From positions 664,001-728,000 of the forward strand of contig CAJHZI010000512.1 in NCBI GenBank assembly GCA_905160935.1: a DNA stretch of 64,000 bases, in the 5' to 3' direction. The notes below the pieces were generated by a model. That model did not search any database, was not told the origin of the DNA, and saw nothing but the letters and a program-made list of their open reading frames with translations. This DNA is from Enchytraeus crypticus. Taxonomy: Eukaryota > Annelida > Clitellata > Enchytraeida > Enchytraeidae. Made by a program: the position numbers and the translations under genes. Positions 29,478-53,289 of the stretch are shown in pieces. Every line of letters starts with the position of its first letter. Within the stretch, counting starts at the first letter, position 1.

Positions 29478-36700
<7,223 letters not shown>

Positions 36701-37963
36701 TATAATTAGAGTATAACTTTAATTAATTTTAATCACTACTTTGCCGATTACAACGTTCAGTATAAAAATGTATTATTATTCTTGACAGATCTTACATATC
36801 TCCCACTGATACTTTTATCATAAAACCGTTTCGGCTTAATTGTTAATGAAAACGACCAACTGATATATTTGCAAGCTGCCTCCTAGGAAATAAATTCGGA
36901 GTAAGGCAATACGATATTGCAATATGCAGGTCTGATGCGCGATTATAGCTTTAGTGCCCAGACAACCTGGAGTATATTATGTAACCTTTGTTGCGTCGTT
37001 ACTCTTTAGAACTTAAAACGCCCAAGTAGTGTGTATAATGCGAGAGTGCATTTTTTCTGAAGAAAGGCTGGACTGCCGATATAAGTACATCATGTACGTG
37101 TAACGTATGTGAGTGACTTACGATTTTTAAGCGCTAGCGGTTATGCTGTAGGCATAGCATGTGAAGGCCAGGCCTACGTTCTGACTGTAGTAATTCCCAG
37201 CCCATGTGTCGAACTACAATGCTACGTGGCACCTAGTAGGTTGTAGATTACATGAAGTTACTCTACTTTAATTTTTGCGCAATTGCTCCTAAACAGTGCT
37301 AGCTGGGAACTGCACTGGCTTGGTTCTGAACTAGCTTGGATCTGAACTAATTGAGATCTGAATTAGCTGGATTTGAACTTGCTTGGATCTGAACTAATTG
37401 AGATCTGAACTAACTGGGATCTGAACTAACTGGGATCTGAACTAACTGGGATCTGAACTAACTGGGATCTGAACTAGCTGGGATCTGAACTAACTGGGAT
37501 CTTAACTTGCTATAACCAGAACAAGATGAAACCTGAGCTAGACGACACCTGATATAGCTGGAATCTGATTTAGGCCGAAGAGCCTTATATATGTCCTAAC
37601 CTAATTAGTTAACTATTAACAATGTGTAAAGACAATTATAGAGATGAAATCTGTTTCTAAGCATCACCATATAAGGAACTATTCTATAGCAACATAAATT
37701 AGAAAGCAGAAACTCAAATAATTGGCTAAGCGTGCCCTCTATGTCACTTAACCCAGGACATAAATAAACATCGAAATGGACGTTGATTTCACACGCTCTA
37801 TCACTCCATTACCAGACGAGAAGAGTTCACTGCCTTCATGCAGCTCTTATTCGAAAAAAATAAAGAAAAAGCTGTTACAATACACAGAAGGTAACAGTTG
37901 GCCACGCTTACGTCTACAGGTGGAAATGAGTTAAAAATCAAGACAGAAACTATAAGAGCCTAT
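36701..37963. other. 5' flank of G5 up to the Polinton
   Basis: It follows the G3 upstream region: 16-bp repeat units at 37310-37510, then the same ATATAGTTC..AACATAAATAAACA path as 21370-21570. It breaks off at 37963 where the Polinton starts and resumes at 51474. I see no gene and no clear core promoter. Confidence 0.6.
37310..37510. repeat. 16-bp minisatellite GAACTAACTGGGATCT upstream of G5
   Basis: About 12-13 units of 16 bp, the counterpart of the array at 21085-21345 with a different majority variant (AACTGGGATCT instead of AGCTGATACCT), so each array has been homogenised separately. Confidence 0.9.
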
Positions 37964-39055
37964 AGTAGGTATCAATGGCCTTTACCGGGACTGCCCAGCT
38001 ACGGTTTAGCCTATTAGCATATAGGCTACCAGCTGTTAGCCTATTAGCCTAGCAACTGCAAGCCTATAGCCCAGCAGCTGCGAGCAGCTGCTGCGAGCGG
38101 GCGGCGGGCAGCGGTAGGCTAACAGCTTCTGTGGTCTAAGCCTAGGTTGGATAGCCTAAGAAAGCGGCGCAGAGCCTATACTGCGCAAAAACAGCTGCGG
38201 CGGCGGCGGGCGGGGGGCGTCGGCTGGCGGCCTGTCTAGACAAGTCTGCGGTCTCAACGGTTCAACTTGATGAAAAACAGATGGCGTGCAGCTACGACGC
38301 CTTGACGCGGTTAGAGAATGTTCTAGAGTTTCAAAACAAACTTATTACGCAGTCGCACACGTATAGTCAAGTCTGAAATTACACATTGTGGTGAAATCGT
38401 TTATTCTAAGTCATATGTCCTACATATTGCGCAGCGTTTAAAAATATGCAATAGATGCGTACGTTGTCTGTATGTACTGCAACTGTTCTTATGATGTATG
38501 CAAATTGTAAACACTTTTCAGGTTAAGTGCTAAAACTACATGTTTATAAACAGTAAGCACTTTTCCGACAAGGCATCTTTATCAACTTTAACTTGATAAA
38601 GGCGTATTTCTATCAACATTAACTTTACCAAGTCATGTTTTTATCAACTTTTGACTTTAACAAGTTAAGTTTTTATAAAATTTATTATCGTGAAGACATA
38701 CTTTTATCAACTTTAAATATACCAAGGCATCTCTTTTATCAACTTTAACTTTAAAAGGTTTAAATTTTTTATCAATTTAAAAATTATCAAGTAATCTTTT
38801 TTATCAACTGCAACTTTAACACATTAATTTGTTATCAACTTTAAATTTATCATGTCATCCTTTTATCAACTTTAACTATAAAAAGTTAAGTTTTTATCAA
38901 TTTGAAATTTATAAGATGACCTGCGCAATGACAGCTGTGGTGTGCAGCCTAAAAGCTAGTGATGGCGCACTATCAGATGACTCAAGCAACCTAATAAGGA
39001 GGGACACATTGGCCTATACTGCGCAATAACAGCTGTTGCATGCGGCTGCGGGCAG
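37964..39055. repeat. Left terminal inverted repeat of the Polinton
   Basis: It pairs with 50375-51467. The outer part (about 38090-38235) is GC-rich, with GGCGGGCAGCGG- and GGCGGCGGCGGGCGG-type runs standing out from the AT-rich surroundings. The inner part (38560-38900) is made of the TTTATCAACTTTAACTTT repeat. A 66-residue open frame (38829-39029) is the same in both arms but looks like a by-product of the repeat. Confidence 0.85.
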
Positions 39056-39124
39056 CGTCGGGCGGAGACGAGCTTCTGCGATAGACAGCTTCTGCGACGG
39101 CGAGATTCTGCGGCGGTGCTCTGC

Positions 39125-40010
39125 TGTGCTCAGCCTAGACATGATGACTTATTCTCACGCGCACAGTTGTATTTTAACCCAGTAAGCTCGACGTAAACAT
39201 GATGATTCATTCTCACGCGCACAATTGTTACTTTGACCTACTAAGCTCGACGTAAACATGATGACTCATTCTCACGCGCACAGTTGTATTTTAACCCAGT
39301 AAGCTCGACGTAAACATCATGATTCATTCTCACGCGCACAATTGTTACTTTGACCTACTAAGCTCGACGTAAACATGATGACTCATTCTCACACGCACAA
39401 CTGTTACTTTGACCTACTAAGCTCGACGTAAACATGCTGACTCAGTCTCACGCGCACAACTGTTACTTTGACCTACTAAGCTCGACGTAAACATGATGAC
39501 TCATTCTCACACGCACAACTGTTACTTTGACCTACTAAGCTCGACGTAAACATGATGACTCATTCTCACGCGCGCAGTTGTATTTTAACCCAGTAAGCTC
39601 GACGTAAACATGATGATTCATTCTCACGCGCACAATTGTTACTTTGACCTACTAAGCTCGACGTAAACATGATGACTCATTCTCACACGCACAACTGTTA
39701 CTTTGACCTACTAAGCTCGACGTAAACATGCTGACTCAGTCTCACGCGCACAACTGTTACTTTGACCTACTAAGCTCGACGTAAACATGATGACTCATTC
39801 TCACACGCACAACTGTTACTTTGACCTACTAAGCTCGACGTAAACATGCTGACTCATTCTCACACGCACAATTGTTATATTGACCTACTAATCTCGACGT
39901 AAACATGCTGACTCATTCTCACACGCACAATTGTTATATTGACCTACTAATCTCGACGTAAACATGCTGACTAATTCTCACGCGCACAATTTTTATATTG
40001 ACCTACTAAA
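39125..40010. repeat. 59-bp minisatellite inside the Polinton
   Basis: About 14-15 tandem copies of a 58-59-bp unit containing AAGCTCGACGTAAACATGAT and CTCATTCTCACGCGCACA. Two unit types alternate (one ending TATTTTAACCCAGT, one TTACTTTGACCTACT), so part of the array grew by copying multi-unit blocks. It is present only on the left side. Confidence 0.9.
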
Positions 40011-40014
40011 TTCA

Positions 40015-42270
40015 ACGCATCTTTTTTTATTAACATTAACTGTATCAAGGTGTGATACATCAACATTAACCTTATCAAAGCTTATTTTTATAAACTGTAT
40101 ATTTATCAAGTCATCTCTTTTATTAACTTTAACTTTATCAAGGCATCCTATTAACAAGGTTAAGTTTAACAACTTATGTTTTTAAAAATGTATTATCATG
40201 AGGACGTGTTTTTATCTACTTTAAATATACCAAGGCATCTTTTTATTAACTTTAACTTTATCAACTTAAGTTTTTTATCAATTTTACATTTATCCAGTCA
40301 TAGTTTTTATCAACTTTAACTTTAATAAGTTAAGTTTTATTCATTTTACATTTATCATGTTGTCTTTTTTATCAACTTTAACAAGTTACGTTTTGATCAA
40401 TTTCAAATATATTAAGTGGTCTTTTTTATCAACGTTAACTTTAACAAGTTAAGTTTTACCAATTTGACATTTATAAAGTTTTCTTTTCTATCAACTTTAA
40501 TTTTAACAAGTTAAGCTTTTATCAAGTATAACTTTATCAAGGCGTGTTTTTTATAGCAATTTTACATTTATCAAGTTGTATTTTTATCAACTTTAACTTT
40601 AACAAGTTAAATTTTTATACATTTTACATTTATCAAGTGATCTTTTATTTCAACTTTAACTATATCAAGTTAAGTTTTTATGAATTTCAAATTTATCAAA
40701 TCGCATTTTTATCAACTTTAAATTGATCAAGTCATAATTTTTATCTACTTTATCTTTAACAAGTTAAGTTTTTATCAATTTGACTTTTATCAAGTCATCT
40801 CTTATCAACTATATATTTAACAAATTAAGTTTTTTATAAACTCTAACTATACCAAGTCATGTTTTTTATCAACTTAACTTTGACTAGTGAAAGTTTTTAT
40901 CAACATTGACTTTATCAAGGTGTGCTTTATACCAATTTTTATTGTGAAGGTGTGTTTCTATCAACATTAACTTTAACAAGTCGTGCTTTTATCAACCTTT
41001 GACTTTACTAAGATGTGTTTTTATCAACTGTAACTTTATCAAGGTGTGATTTTAAAAACTTTAAATTTACCAAGTCATGTTTTTATCAACTTTAACATTA
41101 ACAAGTTATGTTTTTATAAAATTTATTATCATGAAGGTGTATTTTTTATCAATTTTAACTTTGACAAGTTATGTTTTTATCAACTACAACTTTATCAAGT
41201 CATCTTTTTTATCCACTTTAAGTTATGTTTTTATCAAATTTATTATTTTGAAGGTGTGATTCTATCAACATTAACTTGACCAAATCATGTCTTTATCAAC
41301 CTTAACTTTACAATGGCGTCTTTTTATCATCCGAAAATTTATCAAGGTGTGATTTTATCAACTTTAATTTATCAAGTTATCTTTTTCATCAACTTTAACT
41401 TTACCCAGTCACATTTTTATCAACCTTAACTTTAACAAGTGAAGTTTCTATCAATTTTAAATTTATCAGGTTATCTTTTTTATCACCTTTAACTTTAATT
41501 AGTTAAGTGTTTATCATCATTAACTTTATCAAGGTGTATTTTAAACCAAATTTATTATAATGAAGGTGAGTTTATATCAACTGTAACTTTACCAAGTCAT
41601 GATTTTATCAACTTTAACTTTATTAAGGTGTGATTTTATCAACTTTTAATTTATAGTAAGTTAAGTTTTTATCAAGGGTAGCTTTACGAAGTCAACTTTC
41701 TATCAAATTTTAATTTTAACAAGTTATGTTTTTATCAAATTCATTATCATGGAGGTGTGTTTTTATCAATTTTAAGTTTAGCAAATTAAGTTTTTATCAA
41801 GTGTAACTTTATCAAGGTGTGTTTTTATCAACTTTAACTTTAACAAGTTATGTTTTTATAAAATTTATTATTATGAAGTTGTGTTTGTATCAATTGTAAA
41901 TTTAACAAGGTTTGTTTCTTATCAACTTTAACTTTACCAAGTCATGTCTTTATCAATTTTAACTTTAGCAAGGTATCTTTTTGTAAAGTTTAAATTTAAC
42001 AAGTTGTTTTTATAAAAAATTTATTATGATGATGTGTTTTTATCAATTGTAACTTTATCAAGGTGTGTCTTTTTATCAACTTTAACTTTATCGAGACACA
42101 ACTTTTATTTTTCCAGTCATCAATCTTTTTATCAAATATAACTTCACGCTTTATGCCTTTATCATCTTTAACTTTATCGCGGCGAGTTTTATTAACTTTC
42201 GACATTTTTAAGGCATGTTTTGATTATTTTAACTTTAACGCATCATGCTTTTATCAACCTTAACGTCTTA
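40015..42270. repeat. Degenerate TTTATCAACTTTAACTTT tandem array inside the Polinton
   Basis: More than 2 kb consists of diverged units of roughly 30-35 bp on the pattern TTTTTATCAACTTTAAC, TTTAACAAGTTAAG. The same repeat forms the inner part of both TIR arms, so it has spread from, or into, the terminal repeats. No coding capacity is seen; short open frames of FINFN/FYQF type come from the repeat. Confidence 0.85.
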
Positions 42271-42659
42271 ACGTCTTAAACTAGTCGTCTGTGTGAATTT
42301 CATACTTCGAGTGTGTCTGAAAATTTTAATATTGATGCTCATTGTAAATGCTGATTTGTCATTTCAGTTTATATCATGCACAGGATCATCTGTTGTGAGT
42401 GCAAGGTACCTTTTCCAAACTATCTAATTCACTTACAACGAGTATACATTCCATGAAACGATCGTTGTTCATTTGTGTCGATAAAATGCTTTTTAGAGGA
42501 TGAGTTAGTAATGAGTGAAGAATTGCCTTTGAAATCTTCTCTTACTCGTTATAGCATAATCTGAAAATTCTTTGCGATTTGAATTTTTTTTAGAAACAAC
42601 TCATTTTGATTACATGTGTCTTTATGACTCTGCAAATCTTTATTTACATTTAGTTATTT

Positions 42660-42810
42660 ACGTACACAATAATAAAAGACAGTCTTTATTTATAGACATG
42701 CAAAAACAACAGTTCAATGTGCACAATATATTTTGCAACAGTCTCTATTTACATGCAAATTCAACAGTTCAATGTGCACAATATATTTTGCAACAGTCTC
42801 TATTTACACA
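42660..42810. repeat. 58-bp direct repeat inside the Polinton
   Basis: CAACAGTTCAATGTGCACAA followed by TATATTTTGCAACAGTCTCT occurs twice, about 58 bp apart, near the 3' side of the polymerase region. Confidence 0.7.
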
Positions 42811-43089
42811 CAATATAAAAATTTGCAAATTCATCAATATTTACATTTAAAGCCATCAAAATTTATTTAAATTATTTACAGCGATAAAATATCATCAAAA
42901 GTCTCTATACACATGCAAAAATCAACAGAATCTATAAAGTTCGATTTTTACATCAGTCTGTACAGAAATATATACAATATTGATTCTCTATGTACAATTG
43001 CCTATGTACATTTAAATACAAATTTCCTAACATTAACAAAGATGAAAAGTGCTTCGTGATAGAAAATTCGTACGTCGAACCGGTGCTTG

Positions 43090-46000
43090 TTAGGGATTTA
43101 ATTTTGACATGTGCGTAAGCTAATGTCGTGTATCCGTCAGGGAGAATGTATCGTTTGTCGTCGTAGGGGTTCAGTCCGTCTTTTTTCAATGTTAGAGTTT
43201 GCAGCACATGGTCATTACTGCGAATGCAGCAGAATTCAGCCCTCGTTTTCTTATGCTGCTGACAAATGTCTCGTGCGTTATGTCCTTTTCGCGAAACGAG
43301 TTATGAATTCCTTTCGCAGTGGACTTAACCCCTTGCGGAGTTCGAGACTATACATTTTTGCCCTCAGTCCAACAAACGCGAGTGGTTGCAGCCCTTCACA
43401 CTCGTCTTTGAAAATTTCCAATTTTCTGTCCTTGACTTTACTAAAGCAAGGGTTGGATGGAGGGAAGTTGGATGTGTCCATGTGGTCAACAAAATCTAAC
43501 ATGTCTTTGAACAAGTCGTCCGTTACGGTGTGATAACAGAGCGAGTCGGTATCGGTGAACAAGAGCTGCGCTTTGTTACAGTACCTCGTCTTTATCAAAT
43601 CGTAATGGAATTCAAAAAGGTGTAATTTCGACAAATCGAGAATGCAAGCACCTGTGTACGTCGGTTTATCATAGAGGGCGTGTACCTGTTTCATCTCTCC
43701 GGCTACAAGAGTTTCGTTAATTTTGTTAAAGGAGTGGTAATTTGGTTTGGCTACCAAATTCCTTGCCTGTTTGTCCGATACGCACAACTTTATGTCTGTT
43801 TGTTTTCTCAAATTTTGCATTGTTTTGCCGAAAAGTGCATTGTTTAGAAATTTAAAAACGTTCTTTTCTGATGGTAATTTTGCTTTTTGGCGTTGAATGG
43901 TGTTGAAATGTACGTAGGGTTCGATCTATGCCTTTTGTGTGAAACTCATAACGCGATGTATATGTTTGCAGATCAAAACATTCTGCATAGTACTGAAAAT
44001 TTCTGTAGTGTAGTACATATCGGGACTTTGGCAAGAAATTTGGCACAAACTTTTCAATTTTTGAATCTTGTTTTCCCCCCAATTTTTTCAAAAGTTCCTC
44101 CTGATAATGGGAGTGGGAGGATTCAGGGATGGAAATTCTTTCGGGGGCTAGGGGCAGGTCATTGTGAAGCTCGTGTAGCACGTCGGGGTATTCAAAATCT
44201 ACCTCCAGCATGAAACCTGTATCTGTATCTTCCGGGATCTGCATGAAATCGATGGACCCAATTTCTGCCATAGTTAAAAATTTAAAATTTCCAGTGGGGA
44301 GCGGTTGGGACATGGCCCACCCGTACAGTTTATTTGAATCGTAATATTGGGTGTACGAGTGGGCTACCTAGGGGTCGTAGCTATGTAGATGAGGATTATT
44401 TGCTTCGGTGTACCGATGAGTGATAATCGATACGCCGCCGCGAAGAGCAGACTCAAAAAGGAGGAGATGATCGGGCTTTGTCAAGAACTCGATCTTTGCC
44501 TCGGTCATCTTTAGGCATGCATCAAATGAGAGACCGGGGCTGGTGTAGTAATGGGCGGGGTCGAGAGAGTAATTATTCATCGAAAATTTTCGAAAATTTT
44601 CGAAAGTTTTCGAAGCACGTCAGCGAGCAAAAAGAACGTCCGTGAGCAGGTAGAGGTCATGATACCCTCGCATATCTTGCACATCGAACGATCTCCAAAC
44701 CAACTGAACATGCTCGTAATCTTCTTTCGAACATTCCGATTCGGCGAGTTTACTGTAGAAATTTTGGATTGGGGGAAGTTGTTTTTCGTCAAATTTATTC
44801 CTAGAGCTCATGTACTCGTAGGGATAAACTCCCTTCCTCAAGATAAGGGATCTTTTTGATAGGGTCTGGAATATGACGACGAGTGTGGACAAATTTGGAC
44901 TCGTCTTCTTTCTTGAGGCTTTCGACCAGTGAATCTAGAGAGCCGGGGAGGAATTGGCAGGAATCTAAGATTCTTAGGTTCCCTATTTGGACGGAAATAA
45001 ATTTTCAGAATTGTTAGCTATTACACGAATTTGATCCATTTCGGGTAACGAATCCGTTTGTAAAAATTTCAAAATGTGGTGGATGTCGTAATTTTTGGAA
45101 TTGTGGAAGATGACCGGGATAAAGTATCTATCTCATCTACTCATCCTTTTCGTCCGCATTCTCATCTACATAACAACCTTTCCCAGGTATTTCCTCAACA
45201 TATATTTCATTCTTTGTATTCTTATTTTTCTTGTCCCAACCCCTCGAGTTAAATTTCCGGGGTTTTAATTTTAGATTGCAGCTGTTGCAACAAGCTGCGA
45301 TGAAATCGCCAGTAATGTGATCGTGATGCCTGACCTTCCGTACAAATGGTTTTCTGCAGAAGGTGCAGACATCAGAGTTACGATACTGTCGAACTTCATC
45401 TTTGATCATTATTTTCATGGGGACAACTTCTTTTAGTAAATTATAAACTTCTTCATCGATCTCATGCAGCGTGGCGTAAAACTTTTCCATCACGTTTGCA
45501 CCGCTGTACGTGTATGCTTTTTTATATGATACATTTTTGTACCAGCATACACGTACGATGCAAAAGCCGCTGGGTGTATGTACTTCGTCGTTTTCTGAAA
45601 TGAACGATTCAAAATAGCAGTAGAGGACAAAAGGGACTTCGAATTGTTGTGGATATATTTGAATTTCAATATGTTGGGCGGGTCACGGTCCGTGGACTGT
45701 TTAATCATATCCTCAACGAGACGACGTTCAGAGCCTTCTAGCTCAAGCAACCTATCAGCAAGATCGTCCAGACTAGAATAAAAAAGTTCTAATTCTTTAT
45801 CTTTAGCCTCTAACTGCAACTTGCTGAGAGGTAAGGTACTAGCTAGTGTAAGTTTCGTACCGCAGTCTCGTTGATGAGCGATTTGGAGTTTTTCGGAAGC
45901 AAATCGGTGGAGGCAGTACCTACAGGGAAAGATTTTATGCTGACGATTTTTGACGTCGAAAAGTAGTCTACCTAAATTTTCTATTAAAACATAATGCCTG

Positions 46001-46840
46001 ATTTGATTACCCTGTTTGTCTGCACCGGTTAAAAGAAGAAGGTTGACATGGTGTGGACGGTCTTGGTGTTTGGACATGTGTATTGATAGCAGTGTTGGGT
46101 CATATATTTCTTCATCAATATCGACATAACTAAGGACACCTATGCTTATATCAGGATTTTGGTTTTCGAATTTGGAGATTTGGTCGATACGGAGAGGGAA
46201 CTGGATGCCGGTGATATTAAATTTGTGGAGATGAGAGTAATAATGGTATGGACGGCCGGGGTGGTCAATTTTTTATTTTGCATTTTGTACTCGGGGATGA
46301 CATATACCGCAGCGGCTAGACAATGCAAAAAGCACTTTTCATCTTTGCTGTGAATATTGATGATGGCTTTTTTATTAGCAATAAATAATTGCGTTAAAAA
46401 ACGCAAGGAGTCCGCAATAGGATCGTATGATGCCACTCTAAGAGTGACATCATCGACATTTTCTAATAGCGAACCTGACCCCATCGAACAGAACTTCTCC
46501 AGCGTTTCGTTCAACTTGTTGACGGCTTCGGTCATCCGTTCATCGTTTTCCGATGGATGCAGGAGTCTCTCAACATCCGATCTGAAACACGCTTTTGTAG
46601 TTGACTCTGCACCTTCGCCTATTGTACGATGAAGGTTGATGTTGCTGGAGAGATAATATTTGATGGGGCTGCAAAATATATTAAATATAGTCCCCCATCT
46701 ATTTACAATAAAATATTCACTCCACCTAGCTAATAAGTAGTATAACATAACAACAGTAATATAACAAACTTTAGCGCCATCTGATGAATTTCTAATGAGA
46801 AAGAACTCTCTCCACCTAGCGAATAAGTAATATAGCATAT
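43090..46840 (-). pseudogene. Protein-primed DNA polymerase B region of the Polinton, broken
   Basis: Separate open stretches on the minus strand resemble the family-B polymerase of Polintons. The catalytic motif TDTDSL and the stretch LQPLAFVGLRAKMYSL lie near 43.4-43.6 kb, GYHDLYLLTDV near 44.7 kb, a zinc-binding CTFCRKPFV..HHDHITGDF block near 45.3 kb, CRYCLHRFASEKLQ near 45.9 kb, and CFLHCLAAAVY near 46.3 kb. The 3' end near 43.1 kb has LNPYDDKRYIL, another family hallmark. The order matches the family. The reading frame is broken at about six or more points, so no working polymerase is expected. Confidence 0.8.
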
Positions 46841-47594
46841 CTATTTAACAAACTTTAGCACCATCTGTTCAATTTCTAATAAGAACGAATTTGTAATGTC
46901 ATCTGTTACAATAGTAAAAATTAAACATACCCATGGCTGGCTAAATCTTGGTGCAATAATTCAGCGATTCTCAGACGCCTAGCTTCTAATTCCTCTCTTA
47001 GCCCTTCATGTTGGTCGAAGGTAGATAGAGAGTAGCTTGGAAAAACTGGAATTGGTGCTAATGGTCCACTTCCTCCTCCTCGCTGCGTCTTTTTCTTTTG
47101 GCATGACTTGCACACAGTGGAACCAGGCAGGAAACATTCTTCTCGCAATCTGCGTTTGCACGTACCGGTACATCGTACCTTCGTGGCGCATTCGACGCAG
47201 ATAGAATTTGCAGGGGGTAATTCAACAATGTCACAGTCACCTGTATGAATATAAATTTTAAAATTATTTGCAGAAAATACACTACTAATTTTATAATGAG
47301 TAAATATGTAAAATTATGCACCTTACAATGATATATTAGTCAGAATTAAAAATTTTACTAGATAGAGAGAGTACTATATTATATAAATTACTTACGACAT
47401 ATGTTTCGTTTAGCTCCTGAAGGACCAGCCATTGGTAAAGCTGAATGTTTCTGAGTACCTGCAACAAATATACAAGTATAAATTTATTATTTTCAAATAA
47501 AATATATTTTCTATAAATTTATATATTCTATACTTATGGTAAGTTTTAGCACCAATCTACAGCAAGCTTGAATAAAAAATTAGCCTTTCATCAT

Positions 47595-47675
47595 TACTTG
47601 ACCGAGCTGGGCTTTGAACTCAGATCAGGTGCATAAGAGGCGAACGTTCTAACCGTTACACCATTACCCACCCAG
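47595..47675 (-). tRNA. tRNA-like sequence (pseudo-tRNA or SINE head)
   Basis: On the minus strand: GGTAATGGTGTAACGGTTAG resembles an A box, and GAGTTCAAAGCCC about 40 bases later resembles a B box. A clean acceptor stem and a 7-base anticodon loop are not obtained, so a functional tRNA is unlikely. It lies between exon-like segments of the candidate gene. Confidence 0.4.
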
Positions 47676-47721
47676 TATAAAGTATACATTTTTAAACAAT
47701 GTTCAATGCACATTCTTCCTA

Positions 47722-47860
47722 AGAGAGAGAGAGAGCGAGAGAGATAGAGAGAGATAGAGAGATAGAGATAGAGAGAGAGAGAGAGAGATAGAGAGATAGA
47801 AAGAGAGACAGAGAGACAGAAAGAGAAAGAGAGAGAGAGACAGAGAGGGAAAGAGATAGG
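47722..47860. repeat. GA-rich microsatellite inside the Polinton
   Basis: GAGAGA with GATAGA and GACAGA variants over about 140 bp. The SLSLYLSL frames on the minus strand are artefacts. Confidence 0.9.
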
Positions 47861-48638
47861 AGATAAGAGATGGATAGATATATAGTGAGAGACAGTGTAG
47901 GAACTGTAGATGAGCCATAAATTGCATAGAAACAATGTAGGCCTATAAAATGCGATATTCTAGAAAATGAATTATACGCTTATAGACCTATTTAGAGGTA
48001 CAGATCAATTTTAATAATTATATATATCATAATTCGATGTTATTATTATAATAGTACATATATAATAAGGCATATAAAATAATTTCCTATTTTTAGCAAC
48101 ATTTCAACAAGTCATAGAAATATTTCTGCACTCAGCAGTTAGACTTTGTTATAAACAGTCGAGAGAGGGTGGGAATTGAGAGGGGCAAAATATATACAAT
48201 ATTCAACGACTGACATGGTTAAATGCAATATGGGCAGTGTCTGGTTACAATCTGTGATAGGATGGTCGTAATGAAACATTATTGATAATGTATTCGCTCT
48301 GAGAAAGAGATAAAGGGAAGCTCTCTACAAATTGTGCTGTGAGGTAGATTTTCTATACAGTAATGAAAATGCAGTCCAAATGTGCATAAAATAAATAATT
48401 CTTATAAATATAATTTTAAAATATCGTAGAATATGAGTACTTACAATGAGTGTAGTCTTTATTAATGAAATCAATCAGATTAATTCCTTCTAGAATGCTA
48501 TCGTCATCGCATGCGTTCGAACTTGCAGAAATTAAGTTTTCTTCACTAACTGTAAGTAATAGAAAATAGAAATAGGTGCACATTATTCTGATTGAAAAAT
48601 ACTATATGTCCATTAACTATTTTAAAAGATATAAATGT

Positions 48639-48639
<1 letters not shown>

Positions 48640-48715
<76 letters not shown>
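48640..48715. repeat. TA microsatellite inside the Polinton
   Basis: A pure TA run of about 75 bp. Confidence 0.95.
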
Positions 48716-48716
<1 letters not shown>

Positions 48717-49203
48717 CTTCTTCTTCAGTGCACTGTCAAGTGACAGGTTCGCGGTGAAAATACCCAAAGTCTGCCTGCTTACTCCATAAGAGCACTCCAT
48801 AGATCAACAAATCCATTCGCAAAAGTTTATACCTTATCCATACCTTATGTAGTCTATAGCTTGCAAATAATATGACTACTGAGGCGGACTCCCGCTACAT
48901 TCCACAGTTCTATATCGGATTAATTTCATTTAATCAGGGGAGTTTATATTTTATAACTATAGAAAGCAATATTCATTATAGATAGAGGCCTACTGAGTCA
49001 AATGTATCTTAGCTCTGTTTAAACATTGGAAAGCTCTTTATTGAGTTATATAATTCTAGAAGATAAAGTTAATTACTTACATCGCATAATGTCATGCTCC
49101 TGATCTAAAATATCCATTAAGCTGGGATCAACGATCATCTCCTCAGCTTGATCCGGTGTTGAGTTATCCACAGTTTGATGGTTGTTAGGAAGGGGCTAAA
49201 ATA

Positions 49204-49245
49204 CACACGTGATCATTAATACTAAAATATTAATGATCACGTGTG
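49204..49245. repeat. Perfect inverted repeat (18-bp arms) inside the Polinton
   Basis: CACACGTGATCATTAATA (49204-49221), spacer CTAAAA, then the exact complement (49228-49245). It lies just beyond one of the exon-like segments of the candidate gene. Confidence 0.85.
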
Positions 49246-50374
49246 CAAAGTATTTGTAAAATATGCATTTGTCTGCAGTAAAGGACCATACTGGTGGCAA
49301 CTAATTTAAAGAATTTTAAAATATATTACTGCTTTCCACATTGTCTATTTTGAAATACCATGTATAAATTAAATGGAGGAATTTGAAATATAGTAGATAT
49401 AATAGATGTAGATATCAGCGAGAGGGTAATGAGATGTATCTTAGTCCTGGTGAGGCCATATAGTAGTGACTTCCTTATAGTATAAAAATATACTTATTCT
49501 ATGTAAAATTAGAGAGAATCTTTTGCCATAGTGCAGAATGTTAAAAATAATAGCTCAAGAATTTTGAGTCTTAGAGGTATGAAAGAAACAGATCGAAATA
49601 GGTATATAAATTAATGTTGTATAAGTAATTTGTATAAATTAATCTCTACATTAAATAAAATAGAATTCTAACCTGTGCTATAGGATTCTTTATCAAGTCA
49701 TCATCAGAGACACTCTTAATCTCTATCAATTTGCAAGCAGCCATTGTTGCTATGTTAAACGTAGTAGGAACTGAAGCTTAGATGTTGCTCGTTTCAACTC
49801 AACTGTGCGAATGAAATGTAGTCAGAATTTGCTGACATCAATTATATTCTTTTTCTTTTTATACTCGTAGAAACTTAAAATGTGCTGAGGAGATGAATCA
49901 TCGTTCTGATTTCAGCAGACTAAATGCTGCGCAATAAGATATTGCGCAATAAAGTTTCAATACGGGTCATGAATCATCGTAACGGTGTGATCTTAACTGA
50001 CCACACTGTCGAGTAACTGCGCAATTGATTAACTGCACAGTTACTTTGTTAACTCCTCGCTCAAGCAGGTTGTCGTTCAGTCATCAAAATATTTGCTGTG
50101 TAATGCGATGAGATAGTTACGATGAGTAAGTTACAGGCGAGTTAAGACATGCCAAGTTTTCAAAATCAACTCGTCGAAGGTTAGCTGTCAAAGTCACACG
50201 TGCGTAGGCCGCAGAAGCTCGTCATCGTCCGAAGCAGCTAACAGTGCGTCACATAGGTCAGTCTCTGCGGCGCCGTCCGAAGCAGCTGTTATTGCGCAGT
50301 ATAGGCTCTGCGCCGCTTTCTTAGGCTATCTAACCTAGGCTTAGGCCATAGAAGCTGTTAGCCCGCCGCTGCCC

Positions 50375-51467
50375 GCCGCTGCCCACAGCCACATGCAACA
50401 GCGTTATTGCGCAGTATAGGCCAGTGTGTCCCTCCTTATTAGGTTGCTTGAGTCATCTGATAGTGCGCCATCACTAGCTTTTAGGCTGCACACCACAGCT
50501 GTCATTGCGCAGGTCATCTTATAAATTTCAAATTGATAAAAACTTAACTTTTTATAGTTAAAGTTGATAAAAGGATGACATGATAAATTTAAAGTTGATA
50601 ACAAATTAATGTGTTAAAGTTGCAGTTGATAAAAAAGATTTCTTGATAATTTTTAAATTGATAAAAAATTAACCTTTTAAAGTTAAAGTTGATAAAAGAG
50701 ATGCCTTGGTATATTTAAAGTTGATAAAAGTATGTCTTCACGATAATAAATTTTATAAAAACTTAACTTGTTAAAGTCAAAAGTTGATAAAAACATGACT
50801 TGGTAAAGTTAATGTTGATAGAAATACGCCTTTATCAAGTTAAAGTTGATAAAGATGCCTTGTCGGAAAAGTGCTTACTGTTTATAAACATGTAGTTTTA
50901 GCACTTAACCTGAAAAGTGTTTACAATTTGCATACATCATAAGAACAGTTGCAGTACATACAGACAACGTACGCATCTATTGCATATTTTTAAACGCTGC
51001 GCAATATGTAGGACATATGACTTAGAATAAACGATTTCACCACAATGTGTAATTTCAGACTTGACTATACGTGTGCGACTGCGTAATAAGTTTGTTTTGA
51101 AACTCTAGAACATTCTCTAACCGCGTCAAGGCGTCGTAGCTGCACGCCATCTGTTTTTCATCAAGTTGAACCGTTGAGACCGCAGACTTGTCTAGACAGG
51201 CCGCCAGCCGACGCCCCCCGCCCGCCGCCGCCGCAGCTGTTTTTGCGCAGTATAGGCTCTGCGCCGCTTTCTTAGGCTATCCAACCTAGGCTTAGACCAC
51301 AGAAGCTGTTAGCCTACCGCTGCCCGCCGCCCGCTCGCAGCAGCTGCGAGCAGCTGCTGGGCTATAGGCTTGCAGCTGCTAGGCTAATAGGCTAACAGCT
51401 GCTAGCCTATAGGCTAATAGGCTAAACCGTAGCTGGGCAGTCGCAGTAACGGCCATTGATACCTACT
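50375..51467. repeat. Right terminal inverted repeat of the Polinton
   Basis: It pairs with 37964-39055, with scattered single-base differences and short gaps. The block GCGCAGTATAGGCTCTGCGC followed by CGCTTTCTTAGGC occurs here at about 51246 and again just inside the TIR at about 50293, so part of the terminal sequence is repeated subterminally. Confidence 0.85.
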
Positions 51468-51473
51468 TCCTAT

Positions 51474-51982: not shown

Positions 51983-51991
51983 TAAACAAAC

Positions 51992-52492
51992 ATGGCGTCC
52001 GATAGGTGCGTAAAAATTAATGCGTTGCTATGTTTTGCAATTAATGCCTATAAAAGACACCCACAGAGGTTAATTAAGTCAATGATAAGTGACTTTTACA
52101 GCACAGACTGTATAGGCAATGCGAAAGACCTGCTAATTGCGGATATTGAGGCGTTGCAACTGGATAATTTTAAACCTCCTCCGAATCGAAGAGAAAAGGG
52201 CGGCAGAGACAATAAAGCCAGACAGGAAGTGGACGATATATTATTAGCTCTAACATTCGTCGATGAGAACGCTTGCTTCGCTCAGCTACCGCGTTATTCG
52301 GTGGACAACATGGGGGACATCCCCATAATGAGAATGGAAAATGGAGAATTTGCCTTGCTTATGGCAAAATTGAACAATATCGAGGATAATTTGTCCATGT
52401 TAAAATTAGCATATGCTAATGAGGAAGCAGCTAGATCGCAAAGCTCAAAGGAGCTGGCTCGTATCAGCTCTATTGTTGATTTGATCAACTAA
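51992..52492 (+). pseudogene. LINE ORF1, first part (166 aa)
   Basis: It starts MASDRCVKINALLCFAINAY just inside the 5' end of the LINE. The protein has a basic stretch (PPPNRREKGGRDNKARQ) and, near its C-terminus, a helical charged region (FALLMAKLNNIEDNLSMLKL) that may be a short coiled coil. It ends DLIN and a TAA at 52490-52492. In the +1 frame the sequence stays open from about 52480 into the next segment, so one frameshift probably separates two parts of one ORF1. It has no recognisable nucleic-acid-binding fingers. Confidence 0.6.
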
Positions 52493-52650
52493 CCGGCCAG
52501 TTTGCACGTGTATCTGATCAGTCACGTGCACAAGCAGTCAATTGTTCACTAGTACCACCTGGTCAAGCAGCTGATCCGTCGCTACTTACAGCAGGTTCTA
52601 ACAACCCGTCCACTCGTCACCCCCCTACTAGTCGTGCCACTCTCCAGTCT

Positions 52651-53289
52651 ATGGACTACGACACAGCTGACTGCGAGTCAGAAGGAGGTACGTGGCACAA
52701 GGCAGCAGCCCGTAAGAAGCGCAGGGCTACCGAGGCCCAGCTGTCGCCTCCCACTCCAAACGTAAATAATCCAACAATAAACAAATCAACTGGAAGTAAG
52801 CAGCTTTGGAGCGATCGAGTAGCCAATTCACCGGTCATTAAACAACAACCGCTTAAGAAAAAGTTCGTCAAGATCATTGGCAAGTCAGCACAGCCGTCAG
52901 ACAACAGCGATCACTCAATAGCAAGGGTTAAATCTGCTAAGCCATATATTAAGAAAAGAGTTCTCGGAATCTATAACGTGGATAGTACTGAAACCGTATC
53001 GTCACTGGAAGCTTCAATAGCTGAAGCCTGTGGTTGTAATCCTATCTCCTGTTTCCAGTTGAAATCAAGGGACGAAAATTCAAATGCATTCCGTGTATGC
53101 ATTAACGACAATATTACAGAAAAGTTTCTCAACTCCACACAGCTTTGGGCTAGCGGTATAGTCATTAAGCCATGGGTCTTCAAACCGAAGGAAACCACCC
53201 AAGCAGCTGCAGCTGCTACCAAGGATGCTACTGCTGCTGCTATGGTTACCGATAACGCAGCAACTGGTATTGCCACTAGTTCTAATTAA
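52651..53289 (+). pseudogene. LINE ORF1, second part (212 aa)
   Basis: The frame is open upstream of the ATG at 52651 as far as about 52480. The protein is basic (AARKKRRATEAQL), then has KKKFVKIIGKSAQPSD and a fold-like region (IKKRVLGIYNVDSTETVSSL, CFQLKSRDENSNAFRVCIND) that resembles an RRM-like or esterase-free ORF1 module, and finishes with an Ala/Thr-rich tail. The stop at 53287-53289 is 3 bp before the endonuclease ATG. The ORF1 type is not certain. Confidence 0.55.

Follow-up and report, generated by a model that had tools for sequence, protein, structure and literature searches.

Polintons are intermediate between viruses and transposons. In a 64,000-nucleotide stretch of the genome of the annelid Enchytraeus crypticus (the window; C419:664001-728000 in a 524-Mb genome), a 13.5-kb element (37964..51467) has the ends and the polymerase of a Polinton but no detected integrase or structural genes. 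Is it a broken copy of a complete Polinton, a member of a reduced lineage, or another class of element that captured a polymerase? We favor the second answer, with a probability of about 0.64. More precisely, we propose that the element is a dead copy from a capsid-less, self-copying subfamily of Polinton/adintovirus type, which kept its polymerase and borrowed integrase from intact relatives.

Ends and repeats of the element

The element begins with AGTAG and ends with CTACT. It is flanked by GCCTAT (37958..37963) and TCCTAT (51468..51473), which agree at 5 of 6 bases. Its terminal inverted repeats, or TIRs (37964..39030 on the plus strand and 50403..51467 on the minus strand), are about 1.06 kb each and are 99% complementary. 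Inward of the left TIR, a 59-bp tandem array (39139..40009, plus strand) is followed by a long, degenerate 31-bp array (TTTTTATCAACTTTAACTTTATCAAGTTAAG; 40024..42092, plus strand). The 59-bp array is present in many of the family copies that we fetched, and the 31-bp unit also occurs within the TIRs, with degenerate subrepeats at 38578-38911 in the left arm. The tandem repeats that had been noticed earlier resolve into two arrays, which may be cis-acting end structures. Past the arrays, the minus strand carries a broken polymerase gene, with a spliced gene upstream. Outside the element, we saw a cytochrome P450-like exon to its left (by eye; 36458-36718, minus strand) and two overlapping long open reading frames directly to its right (51986-53289), which by eye resemble ORF1 of non-LTR elements.

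We do not use the 99% identity of the TIRs as an estimate of age, because the differences are concentrated in the outer part: the arms disagree at 8 of the outermost 133 columns; over the following 930 they disagree at 4, and a 2-base gap is counted among these. If only substitutions are counted, there are 8 in 120 outer columns and 2 in 946 inner ones (Fisher p = 8e-7; columns past 1066 lie beyond the arms and were excluded). The similarity of the inner parts is likely due to gene conversion between the inverted arms. The outer divergence of ~6-7% accords better with the decayed polymerase.

With the outermost 437 bp of a TIR arm as the query, we found at least 74 matches in the genome (with the best 40 of 156 candidates scored). 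We fetched 20 stretches, and 11 copies, including the window's, had TIRs on both sides. The fetched copies have the same modular ends. A 6-bp duplication that matches at 5 or more positions flanks 10 of the 11 copies, and five of these duplications are exact. At 0.26 per base, such a match is expected by chance with a probability of ~0.006 per copy. A script that checked nine of the two-TIR copies reported four exact duplications and five with one mismatch; by eye, the duplication of L009 (TACGTG) is also exact, provided that the start of the element is read as AATAG. The eleventh copy, C546 (L026/L027), has no 6-bp duplication that we could find. The same polymerase as in the window is present in the two-TIR copies C194 (L010) and C115 (L012 and L013), and a fourth two-TIR copy, C746:14474 (L025), has a portion of a different one. 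The other 7 of the 11 have no polymerase match, either by DNA or by tblastn with a viral polymerase. Six polymerase-less copies (L009, L011, L014, L015, L016, and L017) nonetheless carry 6-bp duplications.

A divergent polymerase and its undetected partners

Compared with a relative whose frame is open and from which it differs at 24.6% of bases, the polymerase gene (43060..46690, minus strand) is interrupted by 11 indels that break the frame and by 3 in-register stops. In a DNA search, it gave at least 49 matches at 40 places (the best 40 of 111 candidates were scored). Among these 40 places, 17 (including the window) are 81-91% identical, and the other 23 are mostly 73-76% identical. The more distant group includes C190, which has an open polymerase frame of 1,197 amino acids. 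The C190 polymerase is 34% identical, over 1,195 amino acids, to a protein from an IMG/VR viral contig. The same contig encodes an integrase of the rve family (Pfam, E = 6.4e-8) and an ATPase of Pox_A32 type (E = 5.6e-11). Pieces of the window's polymerase match the PolB of this contig by tblastn.

From this homology and from motifs, we classify the gene as a putative protein-primed family B DNA polymerase (pPolB), as originally predicted. It contains what we take to be an OTU-like region, one or more zinc fingers, and exonuclease and family B polymerase motifs, all read by eye. The OTU-like N-terminal domain has no profile match; its Cys and His motifs were seen by eye in the open relative. 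Scans with Pfam, PHROGs, and NCBIfam did not name the polymerase, and Pfam's DNA_pol_B_2 does not match it. Searches of PDB sequences gave nothing useful, and there was no match to the polymerase in phage records. No helicase family was listed for the 1,197-residue relative, so we saw no sign of a pPolB-S1H fusion. The genome is rich in polymerases of another type, PF03175, with 206 matches, many of them in open frames of ~1350-1420 amino acids. Pieces of the window's polymerase had no significant tblastn match to 30 fetched PF03175 places, and a profile-profile comparison with the PF03175 polymerases, which relied on shallow alignments, was not significant.

When viral contigs were first scanned with the C190 polymerase, no relative came up. 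Degenerate motif patterns picked out four contigs (L062, L069, L061, and L068). We rejected L061, because its reading frames around the motif seem to be unrelated. Another scan, this time with L062, recovered that contig alone.

The spliced gene has five predicted exons on the minus strand, whose GT/AG boundaries were placed by eye. The first (49673..49744) begins with MAACKLIEIKS. It is followed by exons at 49081..49195, 48445..48549, 47396..47458, and 46931..47240. The last of these is rich in cysteine and lies upstream of the polymerase. The four exons that were compared with relatives (all but the second, whose reading frame as excised opened with a stop) have protein matches in C115, at 67-91% identity. 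The cysteine-rich exon is 80.8% identical to C115 and 49.5% identical to C190 at the protein level, which bears out the possible spliced gene of the original prediction. The spliced gene points toward the polymerase, of which it probably forms the 5' part. We would guess that it has a terminal-protein role.

The reported lack of integrase and structural genes also held up. No integrase, ATPase, or capsid family was found by Pfam in any of the element's 21 stop-to-stop reading frames of 80 or more amino acids, and no Ulp1/adenain-type protease was listed in the Pfam scans of the window's reading frames. When we used 12 reading frames from one viral relative and three from the C190 copy as tblastn queries, the polymerase was the sole match in the window. 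For capsid proteins, which diverge quickly, the lack of a match to one viral relative is a weak test.

A search of the genome with a viral integrase listed at least 129 places (of 652 candidates), and these were mostly free of stops. Apparently, this genome is rich in young-looking Polintons. None of the 40 listed polymerase places lies within 20 kb of the 129 listed integrases (129 of 652 candidates were scored). As a control, only 9 of 75 PF03175 polymerases do. Because the duplications are 6 bp long and the genome has many integrase frames that are open, we infer that integration would occur in trans.

A junction segment in place of the packaging ATPase

Downstream of the window's polymerase there is a 300-bp segment (the junction segment, 42283..42585) and then the repeats. 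To see what other copies have at this position, we read 350-450 bp from each of six copies of the window's group, five of which were the best polymerase matches apart from C194. All five (C284, C293:2434915, C425:1728489, C443, and C123) have a packaging ATPase directly downstream of the polymerase. The sixth, C330, was picked because it has a TIR close to the polymerase, and it has window-type sequence at the ATPase site (86% identity). C194 has the window-type junction as well (87% over 591 bp). In C190, a more distant copy, a packaging ATPase likewise lies downstream of the polymerase, together with two more reading frames. The C190 ATPase matches Pox_A32 with E = 1.1e-4 and 22.2 bits, where the curated cutoff is 22.8 bits, and Adeno_IVa2 with E = 0.0038.

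We then searched the genome with the 401 bp around the junction (42280-42680) and scored all 10 candidates. Positions 4-396 of the query, or nearly so, are matched at six places with 83-90% identity: the window itself, C746:842416, C194, C765, C330, and C293:2789117. A seventh match, in C236, is partial (72% identity). The ATPase-bearing copies C123, C443, and C425 match positions 306-381 alone, which places the breakpoint near 42585; two others, C284 and C293:2434915, are absent from the matches. For the 300 bp to the left of the breakpoint, no other full match was listed in the genome. At five of the six places, a polymerase lies within ~0.7 kb of the junction segment; at C746:842416, none was listed nearby.

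Because six places share the junction segment and no other full match was found, the reduced form appears to be a subfamily that spread, with the junction segment as its marker. The reduced state looks like a trait of this subfamily, and the reduced form looks to have moved. This supports the reduced part of the earlier suggestion of a reduced, non-autonomous lineage; non-autonomy is likely for integration. It had also been proposed that other copies would tell a lineage trait from a deletion product, and both kinds of copy exist: five siblings keep the ATPase, and one subfamily is without it. The ATPase-bearing state would be the older one.

The history of C115 is less simple. The end of its polymerase is missing, no junction segment is present, and the polymerase is closer to that of C194 (6.7% of bases differ) than the window's is (8.9%); the window and C115 differ at 9.7%. 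Either C115 is itself a reduced copy, or there was an exchange of segments among copies.

At another locus, L022, we noticed a 36-residue remnant of an ATPase (E = 1.8e-8) and, by eye, the end of a polymerase (tblastn E = 0.22) beyond a family TIR, with another insertion in between. About 550 bases past the ATPase remnant lies a kinase-like reading frame (by eye; L022 4297-4779; SFGTPGYLPPEIL).

Selection, alternative explanations, and known systems

If the preferred reading is correct, the reduced form would have copied itself from its TIR ends with its own protein-primed polymerase, and intact relatives of Polinton type would have supplied the integrase, which would account for the identical 6-bp length of the duplications. 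The polymerase should then show selection after the shortening. The window, C194, and C115 have 14, 4, and 9 breaks in the polymerase, respectively, and where the copies overlap, no break is identical. The dN/dS ratio between the window and C194, which are both reduced, is 0.47 (bootstrap range 0.36-0.62). It is 0.32 (0.23-0.44) between the window and C115 and 0.54 (0.34-0.85) between C194 and C115. Ratios against C190 are much lower (0.14 for the window and 0.12 for C194), which implies that the polymerase gene remained functional during most of the separation from C190. The ratio of 0.47, a mark of purifying selection, and the lack of shared breaks suggest that the polymerase was still being used once the element had been shortened and that the copies died separately, as would fit a master copy whose polymerase worked. 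Exchange with ATPase-bearing siblings could produce a false signal of this kind.

These data bear most directly on a plain non-autonomous element, in which the polymerase is a passenger left by a deletion and both polymerase and integrase come in trans from longer siblings. We consider this unlikely, with perhaps a quarter of the weight of the evidence behind it. It would fit the private changes of C194, which are about neutral if C115 is the third copy (8 synonymous to 37 nonsynonymous, and 36:45 for the window). With C190 as the third copy they are less neutral (26:75, and 38:74 for the window). Also, the polymerase-less copies with 6-bp duplications suggest that the ends alone may be mobilized in trans, unless these copies lost their polymerases after insertion. 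Against a passenger polymerase are the upper bound of 0.62 on dN/dS between two reduced copies and their independent breaks. A single deletion that shortened the window's copy of a full Polinton has the slimmest chance of all. ATPase-bearing siblings at 85-90% identity do exist, as this would require, but C194, C330, C765, and C293 also have this junction segment close to a polymerase, and C746 has the segment too. In the single pair that we compared, the window and C194, the flanks have no similarity. The remaining alternative, a TIR element of another class that carries a captured pPolB, had been raised by the original prediction, and we find it very improbable. Foldback/Galileo-type elements have long, internally repetitive TIRs, which the window's TIRs resemble. 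Polinton-like features speak against another class: the 6-bp length of the duplications, AGTAG at the ends, and the order of polymerase and ATPase in the siblings.

Our confidence in a reduced, self-copying subfamily is lowered by the near-neutral changes of C194 and by the fact that no integrase was located in the reduced copies or beside the siblings, and slightly by the distance of C115 and the missing duplication of C546. We are more tentative about a broader claim, which we consider possible and somewhat against the odds: that this is a lasting, capsid-less branch of the polinton-type virus family, that is, a self-copying chromosomal satellite whose polymerase is under selection and which takes its integration from full-size relatives.

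How does the element compare to known systems? Kapitonov and Jurka reportedly described, in 2006, a 6-bp duplication together with AG...CT ends as the signature of Polintons. The window's element has TIRs, AG...CT ends, a 6-bp duplication (at 5 of 6 bases), and a pPolB, and its siblings have a packaging ATPase, as in Polintons/Mavericks. It differs in having no detected match to an ATPase, integrase, or capsid, and tblastn gave no significant similarity between its pPolB and PF03175-type polymerases at 30 places in the same genome. Because integrase and ATPase were not detected, we file the element as a derivative of the Polinton family rather than as a complete member. Its pPolB, with a putative OTU-like N-terminal region, may resemble the PolB of adintoviruses and bidnaviruses, and it is related to a viral PolB whose contig also carries an rve integrase. 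Unlike adintoviruses, as defined in PMC11071296, the element has no hexon or integrase that we could see. Transpovirons, which arose within the polinton-like world when the structural module was lost (PMC11071308), resemble the window's element in this respect; however, their pPolB is fused to S1H and they are associated with giant viruses, whereas the window's copy is chromosomal and is flanked by a 6-bp duplication. A 2013 paper (PMC3671162) left open whether Polintons originated as capsid-less replicators or capsids were lost. An exact-phrase search of the literature for related or capsid-less elements gave no match, which does not prove their absence from print. With a reduced, polymerase-keeping subfamily and ATPase-bearing siblings in one genome, the change from packaged to unpackaged and the dependence on helpers become directly testable.

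Two other loci deserve mention. The contig with the C190 copy stops within 1-2 bases of the apparent terminus of the element (C190:174808, at the end of L060), perhaps due to an assembly break at repeats. And L025 (375-8765; C746:14474) is 8.4 kb long; its TIR is distantly similar, and it has an exact duplication (CTCAAA), an AT-hook-like reading frame, and a partial polymerase of another lineage (25% identical). It has the same kind of 31-bp repeats as the window, so this repeat type crosses polymerase lineages.
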